DNA from: Labedella populi
GTDB taxonomy: Bacteria > Actinomycetota > Actinomycetes > Actinomycetales > Microbacteriaceae
Assembly: GCF_004078655.1 (NCBI RefSeq)
Contig: NZ_RZNC01000002.1
Span: 1-64,000, forward strand
Direction of reading: 5' to 3'
Length of the DNA stretch: 64,000 nt
Part shown: positions 4,304-13,175 of the stretch, one piece after another
Numbering within the stretch: position 1 is the stretch's first letter
Layout: the number at the start of each line of letters is the position of its first letter
Notes under the pieces: model-generated
Database searches by the model: none
Seen by the model: only the letters and a program-made list of their open reading frames with translations
Told to the model about the DNA's origin: nothing
Made by a program: the position numbers and the translations under genes

Positions 4304-5926
4304 TCACGGACGAGCACCGTCGCCCCCGAGTACGGGCGAGTCGATGCGGTCGGTGATGATGCCGTCGACACCGAGGTCGAGTAGCGCGCGGATCTCGAGG
4401 TCGTCGTTGACCGTCCACGCGTAGAGGGGTGCGCGGCGATCGTGCGCGTCGGCGATCATCGCTGCGGTCACCGAGGCCTGCTCGACCACGAAGAAGTCGG
4501 CCCCGATCCGGGGAAGTTCGCCCGAGTACATCGCGAGGGCGACACCCACGCTGAGGTCTGGGCGCAGGCGCTCGAGAGTCCGCACGGTCTCCACGTCCAG
4601 GGACTGGAACGTGTTCCGGCCGTCGAGTGCCCCGAGAGCGTCGAGTCGACGGAGCGCCCTCTCGACGAAATCGGGAGTCTCCTGCCCGGTCACCTTGAAC
4701 TCCAGGAGGAGCGGGACGCCGAGGTCGTGCGCCCGCCGGACGTAGTCCTCCATGGTGGGGATCGTGTCGCTGCGGCCATGCATGCTCACGGTCGTCCGGG
4801 TGAGTTCACTCGTCGTCATTTCGGAGACGGAGCGGTCGATCCCCGCGAGCACGAGCAGATTGGTGTCGTGAGCCGCGACGAAGTCGCCGTCCGCCGTCTG
4901 CTGGATGTCGACCTCGACGACGTCGGCTCCCCGGCGTGCGGCGGCTTCGAGACCCGAGATCGTGTTCTCCGGTCCGCCGCGGTCGTAGCCGCGGTGTGCG
5001 ATGACGAGGGGACCGTCGGCTTCTCCCGCTGACGACGCGGTCGGGGCGACGACCGACCCCGAGATCGTGAGCGCCACCGCGCCGAGGGCGATCACGACCG
5101 TCGCGCGTGCCGGCGACCACGCCGCTGGCCGGTGCGACGCGACGGCAGTCGACGGGGGTGTGTATCGGGACGTCACGAACGCGACGGCGATGGCGAGTGA
5201 CGCGAGGACAGACACGAGACCCGAGACGATGGTGGCGTCGGGAGGTATCACCGCGGTCGCGACGGCGACGACCGCGACGGCGCACGCGGGACCTCGCAAT
5301 CTCCGGAGGGATTCCCTCGCCTCGCGTCGCGCGCGGCGAACGGAACGGGGCTCTCCGTCATTGCTCCACGACAGCAGCATGATGACGGCGAACGACGCGA
5401 GTACCGTCGCCGTCATCATGGCGACCCAGAGCGCCCCGGACAACGGCGCTTTGAGGAACTCGCGGGCGATGAACGGCGGGATGGACAGGCTCGCGGTCAG
5501 GGGAGAGAGGACTCCGAAACCCGCGAGGGGACTGAGCAGGGCGAGAGGGACGGCGAGGAGGGCGAGGCCCGACCGCGTCCAGTGCCGGAGGATCACCGCC
5601 GCGCGTGTGAGAACCGCACGGACGGTCCGAGCATCGTCGAACCCGCGTGCCACGACGGCGAGTGTCAGCGCCGTCCATACGAGAGCGGATGCGACGGACA
5701 CGAGCAATGCCGCCGAGCCGAAAAGCCACGCGACAGGGGAGGTCAGGAGCGCCGGGAACGAACCGGGCGACACCGCCTCCACTCCGGCGGCAACTGCGGC
5801 GGCGCCGAGCAGCTCGTGCACGGCCGGTCGCCCGATGATCAGGCAGGTCGCATACACGCCGACGAGGACGGCCCACACCCGGAGCGGTGTGTGGGCGAGC
5901 GACCGGACCGCAACTCGAACGTCCAT
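4304..5926 (-). CDS. Membrane glycerophosphodiester phosphodiesterase
   Basis: A 540-residue protein. Start ATG 5926 (MDVRVAVRSLAHTP) is chosen over an upstream ATG at 5941 because AGGGGAGG lies just before it. The first ~300 residues form a multi-span membrane domain (WAVLVGVYATCLIIG, ALLVSVASALVWTALTLAVV, further hydrophobic runs) like the GDPD membrane domain. The last ~230 residues are a GDPD barrel: VIAHRGYDRGGPENTISG carries the catalytic His-Arg and the metal-binding Glu, followed by VEVDIQQTADGDFVAAHD with the second catalytic His. The enzyme hydrolyses glycerophosphodiesters to glycerol-3-phosphate, here probably at the membrane in lipid or teichoic-acid turnover. It lies convergent to the small ORF at 4137. 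Confidence 0.88.
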   Translation of the reverse strand: MDVRVAVRSLAHTPLRVWAVLVGVYATCLIIGRPAVHELLGAAAVAAGVEAVSPGSFPALLTSPVAWLFGSAALLVSVASALVWTALTLAVVARGFDDARTVRAVLTRAAVILRHWTRSGLALLAVPLALLSPLAGFGVLSPLTASLSIPPFIAREFLKAPLSGALWVAMMTATVLASFAVIMLLSWSNDGEPRSVRRARREARESLRRLRGPACAVAVVAVATAVIPPDATIVSGLVSVLASLAIAVAFVTSRYTPPSTAVASHRPAAWSPARATVVIALGAVALTISGSVVAPTASSAGEADGPLVIAHRGYDRGGPENTISGLEAAARRGADVVEVDIQQTADGDFVAAHDTNLLVLAGIDRSVSEMTTSELTRTTVSMHGRSDTIPTMEDYVRRAHDLGVPLLLEFKVTGQETPDFVERALRRLDALGALDGRNTFQSLDVETVRTLERLRPDLSVGVALAMYSGELPRIGADFFVVEQASVTAAMIADAHDRRAPLYAWTVNDDLEIRALLDLGVDGIITDRIDSPVLGGDGARP

Positions 5927-7115: not shown

Positions 7116-8009
7116 ATGTCGGTCGGTCTGCTCGCCGTCGTCGATGACATCTTGACCGCCGCACTGAAGGCGAGCGCGAAGACGGCCGGCGTCGTCATCG
7201 ATGATGCGGCCGTCACGCCGCAGTACGTGCAGGGGATCACGCCGGCGCGCGAATTGCCCGTGGTCTGGAGGATCGCGCTCGGCAGCATCGTCAACAAGTT
7301 CGTCATCATCATCCCGATCGCGCTTCTGCTCACGGCGTTCGCGCCCGGAGTGCTCCCGTTCCTCCTCATCATCGGTGGCGGCTTCTTGTGCTTCGAGGGC
7401 GCCGAGAAGGTGCTGGAGTGGTTCGGGATGCACCACGAGTCGGCCGAGGACGAGCCGCGCGACGAGAAGAGGCTCGTGTTCGGCGCCATCCGCACGGACC
7501 TCATCCTGAGCACGGAGATCATGCTCATCGCCTTGACGGGTCTCCCGACCGAGTTCAGTATCTGGATGACGCTCGGCGCCCTCCTGATCATCGGCCTCGG
7601 CATGACCGTCCTCGTCTATGGCGCCGTCGCCCTGCTCGTGAAGATCGATGACATCGGATTGCGCCTGATGAAGAGTGAGTCGCGGCAAGTGAGGCGCACG
7701 GGTGCTCGTGTCGTCGCGTCCATGCCCGCGGTCTTCCGCGTGATCAGTGTCGTCGGTACCGTCGCGATGCTGTGGGTGGGCGGACATCTCGTGATCGCGA
7801 ACCTCGCAGAGACGTTCTGGCACGGTCCCTATGACGTGGTGCACGTCGTCACGCACGCGATCGAGGCTTCCGGGCCCGTCGTGATCTGGATCGTCGACAC
7901 CGCGCTGTCGGCCGTGTTCGGTCTTGCGCTCGGTCTCGTCATCGTCGGCGTCGTGATGGGCGTGTCGCGGGTCGCGCGGCGGGGCGTGACCGCCGACGCC
8001 TCGCACTGA
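7116..8009 (+). CDS. DUF808-family membrane protein
   Basis: A 297-residue integral membrane protein. ATG 7116 follows CGAGGAGAAGCAC, a clear ribosome site. The N-terminal motif VGLLAVVDDILTAALKASAK and VVIDDAAVTPQYVQG are typical of DUF808 (YedI-like) proteins. Hydrophobic spans occur near residues 65-95 (FVIIIPIALLLTAFAPGVL), 135-190, 215-240 and 265-290. Function is unknown; the family is widespread and unstudied. It is transcribed away from ppk2 and 95 bases before the Atu4866-domain gene, which has its own promoter-like hexamer. Confidence 0.85.
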   Translation: MSVGLLAVVDDILTAALKASAKTAGVVIDDAAVTPQYVQGITPARELPVVWRIALGSIVNKFVIIIPIALLLTAFAPGVLPFLLIIGGGFLCFEGAEKVLEWFGMHHESAEDEPRDEKRLVFGAIRTDLILSTEIMLIALTGLPTEFSIWMTLGALLIIGLGMTVLVYGAVALLVKIDDIGLRLMKSESRQVRRTGARVVASMPAVFRVISVVGTVAMLWVGGHLVIANLAETFWHGPYDVVHVVTHAIEASGPVVIWIVDTALSAVFGLALGLVIVGVVMGVSRVARRGVTADASH

Positions 8010-8091
8010 CTCGGAGGACGGGTCCGGCGGCGCAGACAGGGTGCACCGCTCCTGGGGGCGCGGCGCCCTCCCTCCCCGAGCCCCTGTCCGT

Positions 8092-8097
8092 CACACT
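8092..8097 (+). promoter_or_regulatory. Possible -10 of leaderless Atu4866-domain gene
   Basis: CACACT lies exactly six bases before ATG 8104. It is a weak match (A2 and T6 kept). A GGGGA run directly touches the ATG, too close to serve as a ribosome site. Confidence 0.35.
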
Positions 8098-8103
8098 CGG
8101 GGA

Positions 8104-8814
8104 ATGATCCGAAGTGAGAAGACGACCGAGCAACGGGCTGGTCTCGTCGTGACGGGCGGCGTCGTCGCGATGTCGGTGGATGGACGCGACGCGGCATGGC
8201 GCTGGGAACGACGGGACCTCGTCGTCGTCGCCGACCGGATCGTGTCCGCGACTTTCCCCGTCGAGGGGGCCGAGGTGATCCGCGCGGAGGGCGCGTTCGT
8301 CGTCCCCCTCCAGGTCGAGTCCGCTCTGCGCCAGGGAGGCCGGGCGCGCGCGATCGAAGCCCGTCTCGAACCGGCGAATCCTGCGACCTTCGCGGTCGTG
8401 CGGCGGCGTGTCACCGATCAGGAGATCCGCCGGATGCTCGTGGTCGCACCGCACGACCTGGAGGCGGTGCTCGTCGACGGGCACATCGAGGCCCGCGATG
8501 GCAGACCGGTGCGAGCGGCGGGAGCGGACGTCGCAGACGGCGCCGTCTCAGCGACGTGGGTCGGTGTCTGGAGCGACGTGTCACGGGGGCTGGATCAGCA
8601 TCTTCTCCCGACGGGTCGTTACACCGAGACCCGTGGCGGCCGTGTCGACGCGTACACCGGCCGCTACTGGGTTCGAGGCGAACGCATCTCCTACCTCGAC
8701 GACTCGGGGTTCTGGGCGTTCGGAGAGCTCCTCGGCGGCGTGCTTCATCATGCCGGCTTCGTCATGACGAGGGGGGCGCCGCACGAGAACGGCCCCACGT
8801 CCACCTTCGGGTGA
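8104..8814 (+). CDS. Amidohydrolase-like beta-sandwich remnant fused to an Atu4866 domain
   Basis: A 236-residue protein. The C-terminal third (WVGVWSDVSRGLDQHLLPTG, DAYTGRYWVRGERISYLDD, GGVLHHAGFVM) matches the small Atu4866 fold seen after short-chain dehydrogenases or alone. The first ~80 residues look like the N-terminal sandwich of metal-dependent amidohydrolases (GLVVTGGVVAM, VVVADRIVSATF, AEGAFVVPLQVE), and residues ~105-140 like their C-terminal strands (MLVVAPHDLEAVLVDGHI, EARDGRP). The metal-binding barrel that should lie between them, including the HxH motif, is absent. The protein therefore cannot be an ordinary amidohydrolase and may be a binding protein. The Atu4866 call is solid; the sandwich reading is inference. 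Confidence 0.65.
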   Translation: MIRSEKTTEQRAGLVVTGGVVAMSVDGRDAAWRWERRDLVVVADRIVSATFPVEGAEVIRAEGAFVVPLQVESALRQGGRARAIEARLEPANPATFAVVRRRVTDQEIRRMLVVAPHDLEAVLVDGHIEARDGRPVRAAGADVADGAVSATWVGVWSDVSRGLDQHLLPTGRYTETRGGRVDAYTGRYWVRGERISYLDDSGFWAFGELLGGVLHHAGFVMTRGAPHENGPTSTFG

Positions 8815-8827
8815 GTCGTGGGGCCGT
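8789..8827. terminator. Bidirectional hairpin across a convergent gene end
   Basis: A perfect 11-bp stem (8789-8799 with 8817-8827) spans the stop codon at 8812-8814. It lies between convergent genes ending at 8814 and 8848, so it may stop transcription from both sides. Confidence 0.6.
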
Positions 8828-8847
8828 GCTGCGTAGCGGTGTCGCGC

Positions 8848-9219
8848 TCAGCCGAGCGCGGTCACGGGGGCGAGGGATTCACGCGAGTCGGTCGCCCGCG
8901 CCGTCGCGAACGACGCGTCGTTCCCCGGCTCCTGGGCCAGAACGATGCCGTTGACGGAGTACGACTGCTGCATGAGCTCCTCGAGCCAGGTGCGGTTGAG
9001 GCTCTGCGAGGCGTCGGCGTCGTAGTCGAACTCGAGCGGGGACGCCGGCGAGAGCCACACGGTGCGGCGGCGCCGTGAGCCTCCCTGCTCGATGAGGAAT
9101 GTGAGGAGCAGGCTCTCCTGCCGCCGGAACCGCTGCGCGATGGTGTGCTGCAGGTGGGCGAGCTGACGGTCGTCGATCTCGAGCGTCGTGGCGGTCGTGC
9201 CGTACGTGAACATGGCCAT
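8848..9219 (-). CDS. DUF7882-like small protein, paralog A
   Basis: A 123-residue protein from ATG 9219 (MAMFTYGTTATTLEIDDRQL), with AGGA eight bases upstream; longer readings lack a ribosome site. It shares with three nearby genes the pattern DDRxLAHL, a basic (K/R)xRRxESxLLT segment near residue 33, an aromatic strand ending VWLSP, and SLNRTWLEEL near 75. Such ~110-residue proteins occur in Microbacteriaceae genomes and are sometimes labelled ATP-dependent DNA ligase, which the sequence does not support: there is no KxDG lysine motif and the length is far too short. Function is unknown. Paralog A is the most divergent of the four, with a Ser/Thr/Arg-rich tail. Confidence 0.75.
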   Translation of the reverse strand: MAMFTYGTTATTLEIDDRQLAHLQHTIAQRFRRQESLLLTFLIEQGGSRRRRTVWLSPASPLEFDYDADASQSLNRTWLEELMQQSYSVNGIVLAQEPGNDASFATARATDSRESLAPVTALG

Positions 9220-9564
9220 GAGGGGATCCTTCCGGCGGGACGACCACATCGTGTGCGATCGTCTCGGAGTCGTGCGTTGCGGCGAGGACGCGTGTCGCGT
9301 CAGCGGGGCGGGATCGCGGACCTCCGGGAACGTCATTCTCGTGCGGAGAAGGGAAGGAGATCAGCGTGGGGGACGGCGCGAGAGTCAGCGCCGGATGTGT
9401 CGGATGAGCCGCGACCAGCAGGAGCCGTACGGATCTGCACGGGGTATCACACAGGACGTGGGGTTGTCGCTCTCCGTGCCATCAGTCTTTCACGACCCCG
9501 GGACCGATGGAAGAGGTGCTGACAGCAGTGGAGGGGATGGTCAGGAACCGGCCCCGCTTCGCCG
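9220..9564. other. 345-base spacer between paralogs A and B
   Basis: It lies between the stop of paralog B and the start of paralog A on the minus strand. I see no convincing gene, terminator or promoter beyond the ribosome site of paralog A; ORFs here have no ribosome site and unlikely composition. Confidence 0.5.
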
Positions 9565-9903
9565 TCAGATGTGACCGCGGAGGCTCGACGCGGGGCCGTG
9601 GGCCTGGCCGGGTTCGTCCGTGAAAATGAGTCCCGTTCCGCTGTTGGCCGAGGCGTTCAGCGCGTCGATCCATTCGCGGTTGATGGCCGGCGCGCGGCTG
9701 CCGGTGAACTTGAAGTAGAGGGGGATGGCGCGGTCGAGCCAGATCGCCGAGCGGCCGTCGCCCACGGCGGGATCGTCCTTCCAGGAGAAGAAGAAGCTCT
9801 CACCGCGTCGCAGCTTGTTGCCGATGACGATCTGCAGATGGGCAAGCGACCGGTCGTCGATGTCGATGTCGATGTCGGAGTCTCCGTACACGAGTTTTCC
9901 CAT
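9565..9903 (-). CDS. DUF7882-like small protein, paralog B
   Basis: A 112-residue protein starting at ATG 9903 behind GAGGAGCC. It begins MGKLVYGDSDIDIDIDDRSL; the alternating Ile-Asp run is unusual and comes from a short repeated codon pair. It then shows the family's LAHLQIVIGNKLRRGESFFF, a charged loop with WKDDPAVGDGR, AIWLDRAIPLYF, and GSRAPAINREWIDAL near residues 70-84. It is the member closest to the usual form of the family. It is transcribed toward paralog A and away from a 113-base gap before the DUF2795 gene. Confidence 0.78.
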   Translation of the reverse strand: MGKLVYGDSDIDIDIDDRSLAHLQIVIGNKLRRGESFFFSWKDDPAVGDGRSAIWLDRAIPLYFKFTGSRAPAINREWIDALNASANSGTGLIFTDEPGQAHGPASSLRGHI

Positions 9904-10016
9904 TGTGCGGCTCCTCGTGATCAGGGCTCATCGCCCGCAGTAGTTCGTCCCACCCTAACGCCGCGATCCCACCAGGGCGAGTGGACGGCCGACGCTCGCC
10001 CGTGCCCCCGATGGGG

Positions 10017-10235
10017 TCAGCGGTCGCGGAGTGCGCCGCGGAGCGCGTCTGCGTCCGCGAAGACCGAGTCGGGGAGCGACCGCAACTCGCCGATGAGCCG
10101 TGGCGTCGCATGCGCGAGGATCGCCTGCAGGAGCAGGTCTGAGCGCGCCGCGGGGAAGGCAATGCCGCGAGCGAAGACCGCGATGTCGTCGAGGTACCGT
10201 GTCGTCTCGGTTTCCCTGTCATCCGCTCCGGTCAT
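10017..10235 (-). CDS. DUF2795 domain protein
   Basis: A 72-residue protein from ATG 10235. The pattern YLDDIAVFARGIAFPAARSD, then LLLQAILAHATPRLIGELRS and LPDSVFADADALRGAL, matches DUF2795: a Pro-Ala before a helix, an Ala-rich helix, then an LPD motif. These helical proteins of unknown function are frequent in actinobacteria. Its start lies six bases after the stop of the 89-residue gene, so the two form an operon read from the 10510 promoter side. Confidence 0.75.
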   Translation of the reverse strand: MTGADDRETETTRYLDDIAVFARGIAFPAARSDLLLQAILAHATPRLIGELRSLPDSVFADADALRGALRDR

Positions 10236-10240
10236 CGCCC

Positions 10241-10510
10241 TCACGACGCCTCCCGGAAGGTGCGGCGCTGCCGCAGTCGCTCGGTCACGGCCTCGAATGC
10301 CTCGTCGAGTGCCGCATAGGTCGTGCACGAGCCGGGGAACGGCCACATCCACAAGACCTCGAAACCGACGTCGTTCTGCTCGACGTAGGCGATCAGGCGG
10401 GTGGCATCGTCATCCGGGAGATCGGCGTCGCACACGCGCCACGAGGACTCGGTGAGGGCGATCGTCTCCACGGTCCGGCGGCTCGGCCGCAGCGGTGTCG
10501 TGATCGTCAT
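10241..10510 (-). CDS. Uncharacterised 89-residue protein
   Basis: ATG 10510 follows GAGAGGGGG with good spacing, which excludes the longer reading from 10825. The product (MTITTPLRPSRRTVETIALT at the start) has a middle section WRVCDADLPDDDATRLIAYV and a C-terminal helix FEAVTERLRQRR. The mix of an SxWRVxD strand, an acidic turn and a conserved helix suggests a small alpha/beta domain. I do not recognise a named family. It is first in a two-gene operon with the DUF2795 gene and divergent from paralog C. Confidence 0.65.
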   Translation of the reverse strand: MTITTPLRPSRRTVETIALTESSWRVCDADLPDDDATRLIAYVEQNDVGFEVLWMWPFPGSCTTYAALDEAFEAVTERLRQRRTFREAS

Positions 10511-10571
10511 GGTGAGCCCCCTCTCTCGTGTCATTACAGCTTCGTCGACCGCGGACGAGGGAGCCGGGGTC

Positions 10572-10600
10572 TTGACAGTTCTGAGCGGGTCTGTTAGCTG
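10572..10600 (+). promoter_or_regulatory. Consensus -35 with weak -10, divergent region
   Basis: TTGACA (10572-10577), 17 bases, then TAGCTG (10595-10600). A second -10-like hexamer TAGCGT (10684-10689) is closer to paralog C. A small palindrome CTTGTCAAG (around 10649-10657) lies between them. Which is used is unclear. Confidence 0.4.
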
Positions 10601-10790
10601 TCGCGGGGCCCCGGGCCGACGTGAATGTTGGCCCGGACCAAGTCCGCTCTTGTCAAGCCTCTTAGCGGCCCCGCGGATTTGCCTAGCGTGAGGAAAGTGA
10701 ATGTACCCCTCGACCGCGCACGCGCGATTCCGTCCGACCGTAACGACCTCCTCACCCCGACGGCGTCGGATGACCACGAGGTGAAGTGAG

Positions 10791-11144
10791 ATGGCGACCC
10801 TCATCGTGGGAGCCGACGAGTTCACTCTCGACGATCGCCTCCTCGAGCATGTGAAGTTCGTCGCGACTCAGAAGCTGCGGCGCAACGAGTCCTTCCTGCT
10901 GACGTGGAGTTACCCGGCCGACCAGGGCTCGGGGCGGCGCTCTGTGTGGATTCACGAGGGCTCCATGCTGCACTTCCGCTTCACGAAACAGCGCTCCATC
11001 GCCCTCAACGCGGAGTGGCTCCACAACCTGCTCGAGGCGTCCCACTCCGTCCGGGGACTCAACCTGGACGACGTGCCGGAGCCGAAGACGGGTGCAGCTG
11101 CGGCGCCTGAGGCGCAGCAGGAGGGAGTCGGCCGCAGGTCCTGA
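10791..11144 (+). CDS. DUF7882-like small protein, paralog C
   Basis: A 117-residue protein from ATG 10791 with GAGGTGA upstream. It carries the family core: LDDRLLEHVKFVATQKLRRN, ESFLLTW, RRSVWIHEGSMLHFRF, and ALNAEWLHNLLEASHSVRGL, then an Ala/Pro/Gln-rich tail of ~25 residues. It is closest to paralog D: both have TQKLRR, ESFLLT and a Ser-His/Ser-Phe-Ser loop. It is 128 bases upstream of the manganese catalase on the same strand, but each appears to have its own promoter. Confidence 0.77.
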   Translation: MATLIVGADEFTLDDRLLEHVKFVATQKLRRNESFLLTWSYPADQGSGRRSVWIHEGSMLHFRFTKQRSIALNAEWLHNLLEASHSVRGLNLDDVPEPKTGAAAAPEAQQEGVGRRS

Positions 11145-11212
11145 GGCGGGACGCATTGTAGGGAGCGGATCCGTCAACGCAAAGCCGTGGACCCGTGCGG
11201 GGGGTGCGGACC

Positions 11213-11218
11213 TACCGT
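11213..11218 (+). promoter_or_regulatory. Candidate -10 of the manganese catalase gene
   Basis: TACCGT within GACCTACCGTGA (11209-11220), the same 12-mer found at 4107-4118. Transcription would start near 11225, giving a leader of about 48 bases. Confidence 0.35.
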
Positions 11219-11272
11219 GAGACAGGGCCGGGAATGAACCGGCCCGTCCACCACGAGAGGAAAACAGGCCAG

Positions 11273-12154
11273 ATGTTCTTCCACCGGCAAGAAATGCAGC
11301 ACAAGGCGACACCCGACGCACCGGACGCGGTCTACGCCCGCAAGCTTCAGGAGGTCCTCGGCGGTCAGTACGGCGAGATCTCCGTGGCCATGCAGTACAG
11401 CTTCCAGGCATGGAACATGCACATCCCCGGAAAGTACCGCGATCTCGTCTACGGGATCGCGGCCGAAGAGTTCGGGCACGTCGAGATGCTCGCCGTCATG
11501 ATCGCGCAGCTCCTCGAGAAGGCGCCGCTCGGGATCACCGACGACGCCGTCCAGTCCGACCCCACGGTGGCGGCGGTCATCGGCGGTACGGACATCCAGC
11601 ACGGCATCGTCGCCGGAGCGGGCGCGCGCCCCGTCGACAGCATGGGGAACCCCTGGCAGGGCAGCTACATCACCGCGAGCGGGAATCTCCTCGCCGACTT
11701 CACGGCGAACGCCAACGCCGAGATGCAGGGTCGACTCCAGGTGGCGCGGCTGTACCACATGACCGACGATTCGGGCGTCCGGGACCTGCTGAAGTTCCTC
11801 CTCGCCCGCGACACGATGCACCAGAACCAGTGGACCCGGGCGGCCATGGAGTTGCAGGAGGAGGGCCTCGAGCTCCTGCCCGTGCCGAGCAACTTCCCCA
11901 TCAAGAAGGAAGACAGGGACGTGTCGTACGAGTACATCAACTTCTCCGACGGCGAGCACGCGAAGGATGGCTCGTGGGCGTCTGGCCCCACCCCGGACGG
12001 CAAGGGCGAGTTCAGCTACCTCGACGGTCCGCAGTCGACGGTGCCGATGCCTCCCCCCACGCACCCCGACTCGCGCTTCTACGGCACGACCGAGCTGCCG
12101 AACCGCGTCGAGAAGATGGCTGGTGCGGTGCAGGACGCCCTCCACAAGGAGTAG
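11273..12154 (+). CDS. Manganese catalase
   Basis: A 293-residue ferritin-like enzyme that dismutates hydrogen peroxide at a dimanganese site. The expected ligands are present at standard spacing: Glu35 in GGQYGEIS, Glu66 and His69 in AAEEFGHVE, Glu150 in NANAEMQG and His183 in RDTMHQNQW. Length is normal for the family. Start ATG 11273 is set by the conserved N-terminus MFFHRQEMQ; the longer reading from 11195 only crosses the promoter. The C-terminal 40 residues are Pro/Gly-rich, as in other family members. A strong terminator follows. Its setting among small unknown genes suggests an oxidative- or desiccation-stress island. Confidence 0.95.
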   Translation: MFFHRQEMQHKATPDAPDAVYARKLQEVLGGQYGEISVAMQYSFQAWNMHIPGKYRDLVYGIAAEEFGHVEMLAVMIAQLLEKAPLGITDDAVQSDPTVAAVIGGTDIQHGIVAGAGARPVDSMGNPWQGSYITASGNLLADFTANANAEMQGRLQVARLYHMTDDSGVRDLLKFLLARDTMHQNQWTRAAMELQEEGLELLPVPSNFPIKKEDRDVSYEYINFSDGEHAKDGSWASGPTPDGKGEFSYLDGPQSTVPMPPPTHPDSRFYGTTELPNRVEKMAGAVQDALHKE

Positions 12155-12167
12155 TCGTCCGACGTAC

Positions 12168-12203
12168 GGGACGACCCCGGACCGTTCGGTCCGGGGTCGT
12201 CCC
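12168..12203 (+). terminator. Intrinsic terminator after Mn catalase
   Basis: A perfect 16-bp GC-rich stem with loop GTTC (arms 12168-12183 and 12188-12203), followed by CCGTTT. This is the clearest terminator in the first half of the window. Confidence 0.85.
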
Positions 12204-12252
12204 CCGTTTCAGCAGGGGTGCGGCCGTTCCGGCCGCTCGAATCACGTTGCGG

Positions 12253-12621
12253 TCACAGCCATTCGATCGAGTCCTCGTCGGCGTCGACGGCGACCTCGTC
12301 GAGGGTGCTGGACCCCGCGCGCGTCGAGATCGCGCGGGGCGCCGCGAGCTCCGACGTCATCGCCTTGAGGCGTGCGACGAGGACGTCGTCGCGGATCTCC
12401 TCGCCGAGTTCCTCGTCCTCGGCGACGTCCTCGGCGACGAGTTGGCTCGCGGGGCCGACGAGCAGCGTCGCCCGGGCGGACGACCCGTCTGCGCGACGAA
12501 TCGGGATGCTCACGGTCTGCGCGGAGTCCACCCGCGCAAGCGCCGCAGCGTACTCGAGCAGCGCGCGCGCCACCTCGGTGCCGGTGACGAGGGTGTCGTT
12601 CGTGTAGTAGATGCGCTGCAT
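12253..12621 (-). CDS. Uncharacterised 122-residue acidic protein
   Basis: From ATG 12621 the product begins MQRIYYTNDTLVTGTEVARA and has a beta-rich front half (VSIPIRRADGSSARATLLVG, then PASQLVAE) and a very acidic tail (EDVAEDEELGEEI, DEVAVDADEDSIEWL). The YYT-x-D/G-x-hhTG start, a 'dispensable' helix and a VSIPhRR strand look like a small lineage-specific family found near DUF7882-like genes; I recall the shape, not a name. A TTCACT hexamer sits six bases upstream, overlapped by GGAAG, so its promoter layout is ambiguous. It faces the terminator of the Mn catalase. Confidence 0.65.
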   Translation of the reverse strand: MQRIYYTNDTLVTGTEVARALLEYAAALARVDSAQTVSIPIRRADGSSARATLLVGPASQLVAEDVAEDEELGEEIRDDVLVARLKAMTSELAAPRAISTRAGSSTLDEVAVDADEDSIEWL

Positions 12622-12839
12622 GCTTCCAGTGAACGCGGGGGTCCGAGGACGGTCAACCCCGTCGCGCTCGGGCTGAGACGTGCAAACGCGCGCGGAGAGC
12701 TCGGCCCGGCGTGGTCTCCTCGGCGTTCTCGGGATGGGGCCGCCGAAAGTCAAGTGGCAAAACGGGGGAGGCGGAAAACGCGCACACTGAGTCTCGACCG
12801 GTTCGCCGATGCGGTCACACCATTGTGAGGGGATGTCCC

Positions 12840-13175
12840 ATGGGAATGCTCAAGTACGGAACACGCGAGATCGCCCTTGAGGACCGTCTTCTCGCGCACA
12901 TCAGTGTGATCGTCACGCAGAAGTTGCGGCGTCGGGAGAGCTTCCTGCTCACGCTCCAGGCCTCCGACTTTCGGATGGCGACGGAGGCCCTCTGGATCAG
13001 CTGTAACAGCGATATCTCGTTCGCCTACTCGGGGAACCGGGTGCCGTCACTCAATCAGGCCTGGTTGGAGCAGATGATGACGCAGTCGTTCTCGGCGCAC
13101 GGCTTGGACCTCGCGGCCCACACGGAGCCTGCAGCGGCCGGTCGCTCGGAACGCGTCGGCGCTCGAGCCTCCTGA
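12840..13175 (+). CDS. DUF7882-like small protein, paralog D
   Basis: A 111-residue protein from ATG 12840, with GAGGGG upstream. It contains the family blocks LEDRLLAHISVIVTQKLRRR, ESFLLTLQ, ALWISCNSDISFAYSGNR, then VPSLNQAWLEQMMTQSFSAH and a GLDL strand. The usual charged loop between the first two strands is replaced by QASDFRMATE. The 48-base gap to the HAD gene holds that gene's own -10 element. Paralogs C and D share more sequence with each other than with A or B. Confidence 0.77.
   Translation: MGMLKYGTREIALEDRLLAHISVIVTQKLRRRESFLLTLQASDFRMATEALWISCNSDISFAYSGNRVPSLNQAWLEQMMTQSFSAHGLDLAAHTEPAAAGRSERVGARAS

Follow-up and report, generated by a model that had tools for sequence, protein, structure and literature searches.

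A cluster of eight genes in Labedella populi was found to carry four paralogues of one small-protein family, DUF7882 (PF25355), which recurs across the Microbacteriaceae together with further small-protein families. The cluster, referred to below as the island, occupies positions 8848-13175 of the window, the 64,000 nucleotides of contig NZ_RZNC01000002.1 that were analysed. It comprises the DUF7882 genes A to D, a DUF2795 gene, a manganese catalase gene and one member each of two families named X and Z here. The explanation that we favour, tentatively, is that the island represents a conserved Microbacteriaceae small-protein module whose DUF7882 proteins would belong to an oligomeric adaptor family in stress or light signalling.

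The DUF7882 paralogues of the island

Independent gene calling returned the same eight genes, at the same place, as an earlier note on this DNA. Four of them matched PF25355, whose Pfam gathering cut-off is 27 bits: gene A (8848..9219, minus strand, 123 residues; E 4.1e-29, 100.8 bits), gene B (9565..9903, minus strand, 112 residues; E 8.3e-39, 131.9 bits, the top score of the four), gene C (10791..11144, plus strand, 117 residues; E 9.2e-31, 106.1 bits) and gene D (12840..13175, plus strand, 111 residues; E 4.4e-28, 97.5 bits). Since all four scores (97.5-131.9 bits) lie far above the cut-off, the sequence blocks shared by these proteins reflect homology rather than chance. The blocks are nevertheless looser than the earlier note had written them, gene A reading RFRRQESLLLTF and gene D reading EDR and ESFLLTL. 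The same note had described the protein as unknown, which is not quite right: PF25355 was deposited in 2025 by the authors of PMC12227055 for putative cytoplasmic transducers adjoining CryoRhodopsin genes, and the family is proposed in that paper as CryoRhodopsin transducers. In our literature search, which was limited, this was the only paper found to name DUF7882; paralogue counts were not found in print, and the word 'paralog' is absent from the main text of PMC12227055. The earlier objection to a DNA ligase label was justified, as neither Pfam nor NCBIfam models revealed a ligase domain at E up to 1.

Pairwise identities among A to D were 31-37% for all six pairs. In a FastTree phylogeny of 122 DUF7882 sequences, gene A grouped with L. 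populi copies on contigs C1 and C12 (support 0.985) and gene C with L. populi copies on C10 (0.908) and C8 (0.873), while gene B grouped with Labedella orthologues (0.988) and gene D with Labedella orthologues and a sequence from one other genus (G239_L295; 0.969). Genes B, C and D each had orthologues in two other Labedella genomes. The association of A with copies on other contigs and the groupings of B, C and D therefore indicate that the four genes are ancient paralogues that were gathered or retained at one site rather than products of recent tandem duplication. Genes C and D, regarded earlier as the closest pair, were separated by the shortest tree distance (2.21 versus 3.06-3.72), but their identity was like that of the other pairs and the node joining their groups had a support of 0.18.

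Distribution and clustering of DUF7882

DUF7882 was present in 193 of 299 Microbacteriaceae genomes, with up to 16 copies per genome among the best 16 candidates scored in each; L. populi had nine copies, four of them inside the 4.3 kb of the island. A phylum-wide draw gave matches in 2 of 246 genomes, both Microbacteriaceae and one of them L. populi itself. An order-wide draw gave matches in 21 of 248, namely 17 Microbacteriaceae, two other genomes with two strong copies each and two with weak matches. DUF7882 is nearly restricted to the Microbacteriaceae. The strong pairs outside this family were found in genomes G621 (family f69) and G689 (family f74) and are perhaps due to horizontal transfer.

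A sample of 20 genomes from 20 genera yielded 146 DUF7882 matches, or 141 once fragments were merged, and 25 of the 141 lay within 1 kb of another DUF7882 gene, compared with 0.75 expected under uniform placement. Two overlapping DUF7882 pieces were observed at each of three places (G009:C1:1200549-1200835, G106:C1:606898-607184 and G290:C6:92736-93019), perhaps representing frameshifted copies.

The four-copy layout of the window was found again in a second Labedella genome (G033, locus L101). Labedella endophytica (L140) displayed the order D-X-C-Z-DUF2795-B, with neither catalase nor gene A in its 16.3-kb locus. Clustering of the homologues elsewhere, on which the proposal of a functional island depended in the earlier note, was thus kept within the genus (L101, L140) and took the form of smaller modules in other genera, greatly exceeding what uniform placement would give.

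Families X, Y and Z

Gene calling and clustering over 140 loci yielded 19 members of family X, 26 of a further family, Y, and two clusters of six Z-like proteins. Because the profiles of X and Y derive from loci selected around DUF7882 or catalase genes, they may favour linked subtypes. The 122-residue acidic gene (12253..12621, minus strand; family X) and the 89-residue gene (10241..10510, minus strand; family Z) of the island, both below every Pfam and NCBIfam cut-off, had been taken for orphans but belong to these recurrent families.

A genome-wide profile search detected 61 X matches in 17 of the 20 sampled genomes, the window gene included. For 24 of them a DUF7882 gene was no more than 1 kb away, where uniform placement would give 0.33, and 37 were unlinked at this distance; X was found within 2 kb of DUF7882 in 15 genomes, in the same, divergent or convergent orientation. 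Across the order, X occurred in 10 of 248 genomes (best 18 candidates scored per genome), all of them Microbacteriaceae. One DUF7882-X pair of L. populi (L233 5165-8063, contig C10) was located upstream of a gene resembling ribonuclease J by eye.

Family Y was more tightly arranged: 13 of its 14 matches, found in eight of the 20 genomes, were within 500 bp of DUF7882, 12 being directly downstream on the same strand. Within the locus set, 21 of the 26 Y genes shared four bases with the end of the DUF7882 gene ahead of them, and four more started no more than 14 bases from it. The Y profile had no match in the L. populi genome, and no Pfam family exceeded its cut-off among the four Y members scanned. 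Small proteins of Y-like plan that were missed by the Y profile were also seen beside DUF7882 in L298, L309, L320 (antisense, in 5000-5420) and L359, perhaps forming a second Y subfamily.

Relatives of Z were found in L092, L101, L110, L140 and L192, and some members of the second Z-like cluster lay beside sigma factors. Locus L092 assembled X-DUF7882-Y-Z inside 1.4 kb. No profile link of Z with DUF7882, X or Y was found; against the DUF3107 profile, 1 of 60 shuffles reached the score of Z, over 12 columns only.

Fold and superfamily relationships

The AlphaFold2 models of gene B (predicted local distance difference test, pLDDT, 87.3; predicted template modelling score, pTM, 0.81) and of the X protein of the island (pLDDT 85.3, pTM 0.71) displayed the same order of elements, strand-strand-helix-three strands-helix. 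In B and X, respectively, the strands were at 2-6 and 2-6, 11-15 and 9-13, 37-43 and 35-42, 51-56 and 48-55, and 62-65 and 61-65, the first helix was at 17-32 and 15-30, and the last at 76-86 and 79-93. An additional short, low-confidence strand was modelled near the end of B.

Profile comparisons were judged against 100 column shuffles. Family Y scored 36.9 with X (shuffle maximum 15.4; probability 91.5), 32.4 with DUF3107 (PF11305; maximum 16.8; probability 86.9) and 27.4 with DUF7882 (maximum 21.4; probability 59.8), and in each case none of the 100 shuffles scored as high. A smaller run agreed in direction, with a probability of 15.4 for Y and DUF7882 (0 of 60 shuffles as high). DUF7882, X and Y are thus likely to belong to a common superfamily, judging from Y as a bridge between the profiles and from the order of elements in the models. 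Likely kinship and a genomic partner are thereby provided for X and Y, two unnamed families.

Family Y also suggests a bridge to DUF3107, for which oligomeric structures have been solved, one of them bearing the name of an RNA-binding protein. The single DUF3107 match of L. populi (L224, C2:569672-569887) matched 7rus and 7rur (Rv3208A/TB9.4) as well as 9nip (E 1.3e-16); 7rur is titled hexadecameric and 9nip has 48 chains. Direct kinship of DUF7882 or X with DUF3107 was unsupported by profile, the scores lying within those of shuffles, and the Pfam scan gave no match of PF11305 in A to D or X. Searching the sequences of solved structures with the DUF7882, X and Y profiles gave nothing credible, and no match at all for X. 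Neither the PH-domain ring for B nor 7rur for X was among the structural matches listed.

Association with rhodopsins

According to PMC12227055, AlphaFold3 predicts pentameric transducers, their sheets resembling the ones in pentameric bacterial PH domains; the rhodopsin is predicted to dock through a strand of its C terminus, which joins the transducer sheet. The rhodopsin model PF01036 gave no match in the L. populi genome. It matched 83 of the 299 family genomes and so works in this bacterial family. In the 20-genome sample, six genomes of which have a rhodopsin, 2 of the 141 DUF7882 copies lay within 300 bp of it, so that rhodopsin coupling looks like a special case.

The lower-scoring class of rhodopsin matches (E 2e-28 to 6e-17) comprised 31 places, 20 of which were fetched. 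Ten of these 20 loci had a DUF7882 gene within 400 bp, nine upstream on the same strand and the tenth convergent. The nine co-directional copies all fell into one 11-tip clade (support 0.888). Of its two remaining tips, one is an additional copy of a sequence already counted among the nine, the other a further gene from that genome (G007). Gene B was outside this clade, in a 7-tip clade (support 0.881) that includes copies convergent to rhodopsin in G237 (the tenth of the linked copies) and G077. Conservation of the cluster in a genome in which no rhodopsin was detected implies that the family probably does something broader, for example connecting stress sensors with the targets of these. The counts warn against reading 'transducer' into every member, rhodopsin coupling being confined to a minor offshoot of an extensive paralogous family, and they make the function of DUF7882 testable in rhodopsin-free bacteria.

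Sensor, regulator and catalase genes near DUF7882

Neighbours were surveyed at 100 of 115 merged DUF7882 places from 19 genomes and at the loci of L. populi itself. A Pfam scan compared 145 of 177 adjacent genes (45-700 residues) with 145 of 534 genes located three or more genes away. Among the top 25 families, which were the ones listed, adjacent genes exceeded distant ones for MarR (7 versus fewer than 2), GGDEF (4 versus fewer than 2) and GAF (4 versus 2). Sigma-70 region 4 was represented by three adjacent Sigma70_r4 matches and by two Sigma70_r4 and four Sigma70_r4_2 matches among the distant genes listed, and the adjacent matches listed also included phytochrome region, spore photoproduct lyase and manganese catalase, twice each. 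Two of the adjacent GGDEF proteins were phytochrome-GGDEF and two PAS-GAF-GGDEF; the former were encoded next to DUF7882 in two genera (L346 6367-8295 and L352 1896-3815). On contig C8 of L. populi (L231), a DUF7882 gene (7971-8387) overlapped a GAF-ANTAR gene (8384-9184) by four bases; another copy of this genome was divergent from a MarR gene and another was paired with an X gene. In 14 of the 80 named loci, DUF7882 had a sigma-70-type gene no more than 325 bp away, and the two such genes that were scanned both had regions 1.2-4. At L216 (6604-8590), the series Z, sigma-70 (regions 1.2-4), DUF7882 and Y shared one orientation and either overlapped or were separated by short gaps, in an operon-like manner. 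A putative EAL-DUF7882 fusion in L320 was rejected, as its linker scored as non-coding and a Y-like frame lies antisense to it.

The manganese catalase of the island (11273..12154, plus strand, 293 residues; PF05067, E 4.7e-96) passed the equivalog cut-off of NF052557 (ManCatBAC; 377.9 bits, cut-off 350). It is an ordinary member of its family and unusual in its neighbours alone. All 60 loci of the strong catalase class (E below 1e-90) from the 299 genomes were surveyed, the weaker class being left out; in five of them the contig ended no more than 3.5 kb away. DUF7882 was found within 3.5 kb in 11 loci from 7 of 31 genera (0.88 loci expected) and within 8 kb in 17 loci from 10 of 31 genera (1.84 expected). 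Four of the 11 closer loci came from one genus and two, the window included, from Labedella. Genome G108, probably the same genome as that of the L. endophytica locus, had a strong catalase locus (L127) with no DUF7882 within 8 kb; provided that both copies of the contig have the same orientation, some 36 kb would separate its catalase from the cluster. On these data, catalase is a frequent neighbour but no constant component. The earlier note had named catalase and DUF2795 as neighbours to be sought near homologues; catalase was indeed enriched. Over the 140 loci, the blast cluster that includes the DUF2795 protein was confined to L101, L139 (L. populi itself) and L140.

Possible explanations for the island

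In the explanation that we favour, DUF7882, X and Y would form one superfamily whose members associate through strand pairing to give rings of identical or mixed subunits, rings being predicted by AlphaFold3 for the CryoRhodopsin-linked relatives (PMC12227055). The subunits could act as interchangeable adaptors, with a partner strand docked and with variable tails contacting other proteins. Each paralogue might be specialised for a single partner: the majority of rhodopsin-linked copies fall into one sub-clade, and the neighbours of other copies include phytochrome-GGDEF, GAF-ANTAR, MarR or sigma-factor genes. In L. populi, the cluster would take part in a stress response, probably to oxidative conditions or light, and the manganese catalase would be an effector that joined the neighbourhood rather than a fixed partner. 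Hetero-oligomers of A to D, suggested as a possibility in the earlier note, would be compatible with our data. A bolder extension, which we consider doubtful, would unite DUF7882, X, Y and DUF3107 in one oligomer-forming alpha/beta superfamily. This superfamily would have been expanded in Microbacteriaceae into mix-and-match adaptor rings, some of them hetero-oligomeric, coupling sensors (rhodopsin, phytochrome-cyclase, GAF-ANTAR) and stress regulators to outputs, perhaps via RNA, a role hinted at by the name of the DUF3107 entry 9nip. The rhodopsin transducers would then be one specialised branch and the Labedella island a rhodopsin-free stress version.

Several observations weigh against the adaptor explanation. 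Direct profile comparisons of DUF7882 with X, DUF7882 with DUF3107 and X with DUF3107 were equalled by 41, 42 and 25 of 100 shuffles, respectively. The best solved match of the B model (7rur_B; Z 3.5, 57 residues, root mean square deviation 2.8, VIA-align) is too low for kinship alone, those of the X model, CutA and PII-like proteins, are weak (Z 3.8 or less), and Foldseek gave no match with E of 0.001 or less for either model. The name given to 9nip by its depositors, 'Small RNA-Binding protein (SRB)', points away from adaptors. Most neighbours of DUF7882 are miscellaneous. The excess of MarR-like genes (9 of 183 adjacent versus 2 of 797 farther genes, P 9e-6) was a post hoc finding with seeds from the same sample, that of GGDEF (4 of 183 versus 4 of 797) is marginal (P 0.044) and that of phytochromes (2 adjacent versus 1 farther) is not significant (P 0.09). 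None of the three was found among the 162 adjacent genes of the 80 named B-type loci.

The island may also have arisen by local gene birth, i.e. from small genes duplicated repeatedly in an accessory stress-gene neighbourhood, sharing ancestry and location with no joint function, and with catalase as a passenger. The general tendency of DUF7882 copies to cluster, the L. endophytica cluster lacking catalase and gene A, and the variable orientation of X would all fit this scenario. It is rather unlikely, given that gene A groups with copies on other contigs, that B, C and D have orthologues in two other Labedella genomes, and that X, Y and Z are found again next to DUF7882 in a number of genera. 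Alternatively, DUF7882, X, Y and Z could be accessories of sigma factors or helix-turn-helix regulators, for example anti-sigma factors or co-regulators of stress regulons, as suggested by the 14 loci with a sigma-70-type gene, by the arrangement of L216 and by the adjacent MarR-like genes. Those 14 loci came from ten Cryobacterium, one Lacisediminihabitans and three Microbacteriaceae metagenome-assembled genomes, and no Pfam DNA-binding domain was recognised in A to D, X, Y or Z, which makes this role unlikely.

A role as RNA chaperones or adaptors in stress regulation, with DUF7882, X and Y descending as oligomers from a DUF3107-like RNA-binding protein, seems somewhat less probable still but is a serious rival. 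It is favoured by the match of the L. populi DUF3107 protein to 9nip and the Y-DUF3107 profile link, by one DUF7882-adjacent gene that encodes a cold-shock protein, and by the GAF-ANTAR partner, since ANTAR-type domains bind RNA. Against it, neither DUF7882 nor X is directly linked to DUF3107 by profile, and the acidic X domains carry a median net charge of -9, although DUF3107 is mildly acidic as well (-2 to -5). The RNA binding of 9nip, moreover, rests on its name: no paper on this structure was found, judging by titles, in a literature search for DUF3107, Rv3208A, MSMEG_1935 and SRB. A dedicated partner system for the assembly, protection or localisation of manganese catalase is very unlikely in spite of the enrichment at 3.5 and 8 kb, and was set aside, the linkage being too loose for a dedicated catalase island. 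In 49 of the 60 loci no DUF7882 lay inside 3.5 kb, 3 of the 59 genomes with this catalase class (G233, G264 and G119) had no DUF7882 match, distance and orientation varied, and the L. endophytica cluster contained no catalase. That the island encodes rhodopsin transducers in the strict published sense is extremely improbable. Membership of the same Pfam family, the recurrence of rhodopsin-linked copies in 10 of 20 loci and the two convergent copies in the clade of gene B speak for it. Set against these are the failure to find a rhodopsin in the L. populi genome, the completeness of which is given as 100, and the position of gene B outside the main rhodopsin-linked clade.

Other features of the island

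The DUF2795 gene (10017..10235, minus strand, 72 residues from its ATG; PF11387, 28.6 bits, cut-off 25) was delimited from an ATG, the gene caller favouring a GTG at 10244. Directly after the catalase stop codon, a perfect inverted repeat with 17-nt arms and a 2-nt gap (12168..12203) resembles a terminator without a T run; it was the sole repeat of note in the repeat search. A terminator scan requiring a T run and a promoter consensus scan found nothing. An anti-phage defence function or a phage origin was rejected, as neither PADLOC models (eight window proteins) nor PHROGs models (seven window proteins and one Y protein) gave a match at E up to 0.01. The gene adjoining gene A (8104-8814, plus strand) carries a C-terminal Atu4866 domain (PF11512, E 1.1e-29).

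Comparison with known systems

The DUF7882 proteins of the island resemble the CryoRhodopsin transducers, as presented in PMC12227055, in belonging to the same Pfam family and in being small soluble proteins with a low-confidence tail. They differ in their setting, since L. populi has no detectable rhodopsin, carries nine copies and has them clustered with X, Z, DUF2795 and catalase. The GAF-ANTAR and DUF7882 genes of the same genome form a sensor-type pair like the rhodopsin pairs. With the pentameric bacterial PH domain (PDB 3DCX), a comparison drawn in PMC12227055, the strand-paired ring is common to the published DUF7882 model, whereas this domain was not among the matches listed for the B model. 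DUF3107 (PF11305) is similar in that 7rur was the best match to the B model and that Y is linked to it by profile. It differs from DUF7882 and X in having no direct profile match to either, in its 73 model positions versus 97 and in its one match in the L. populi genome.

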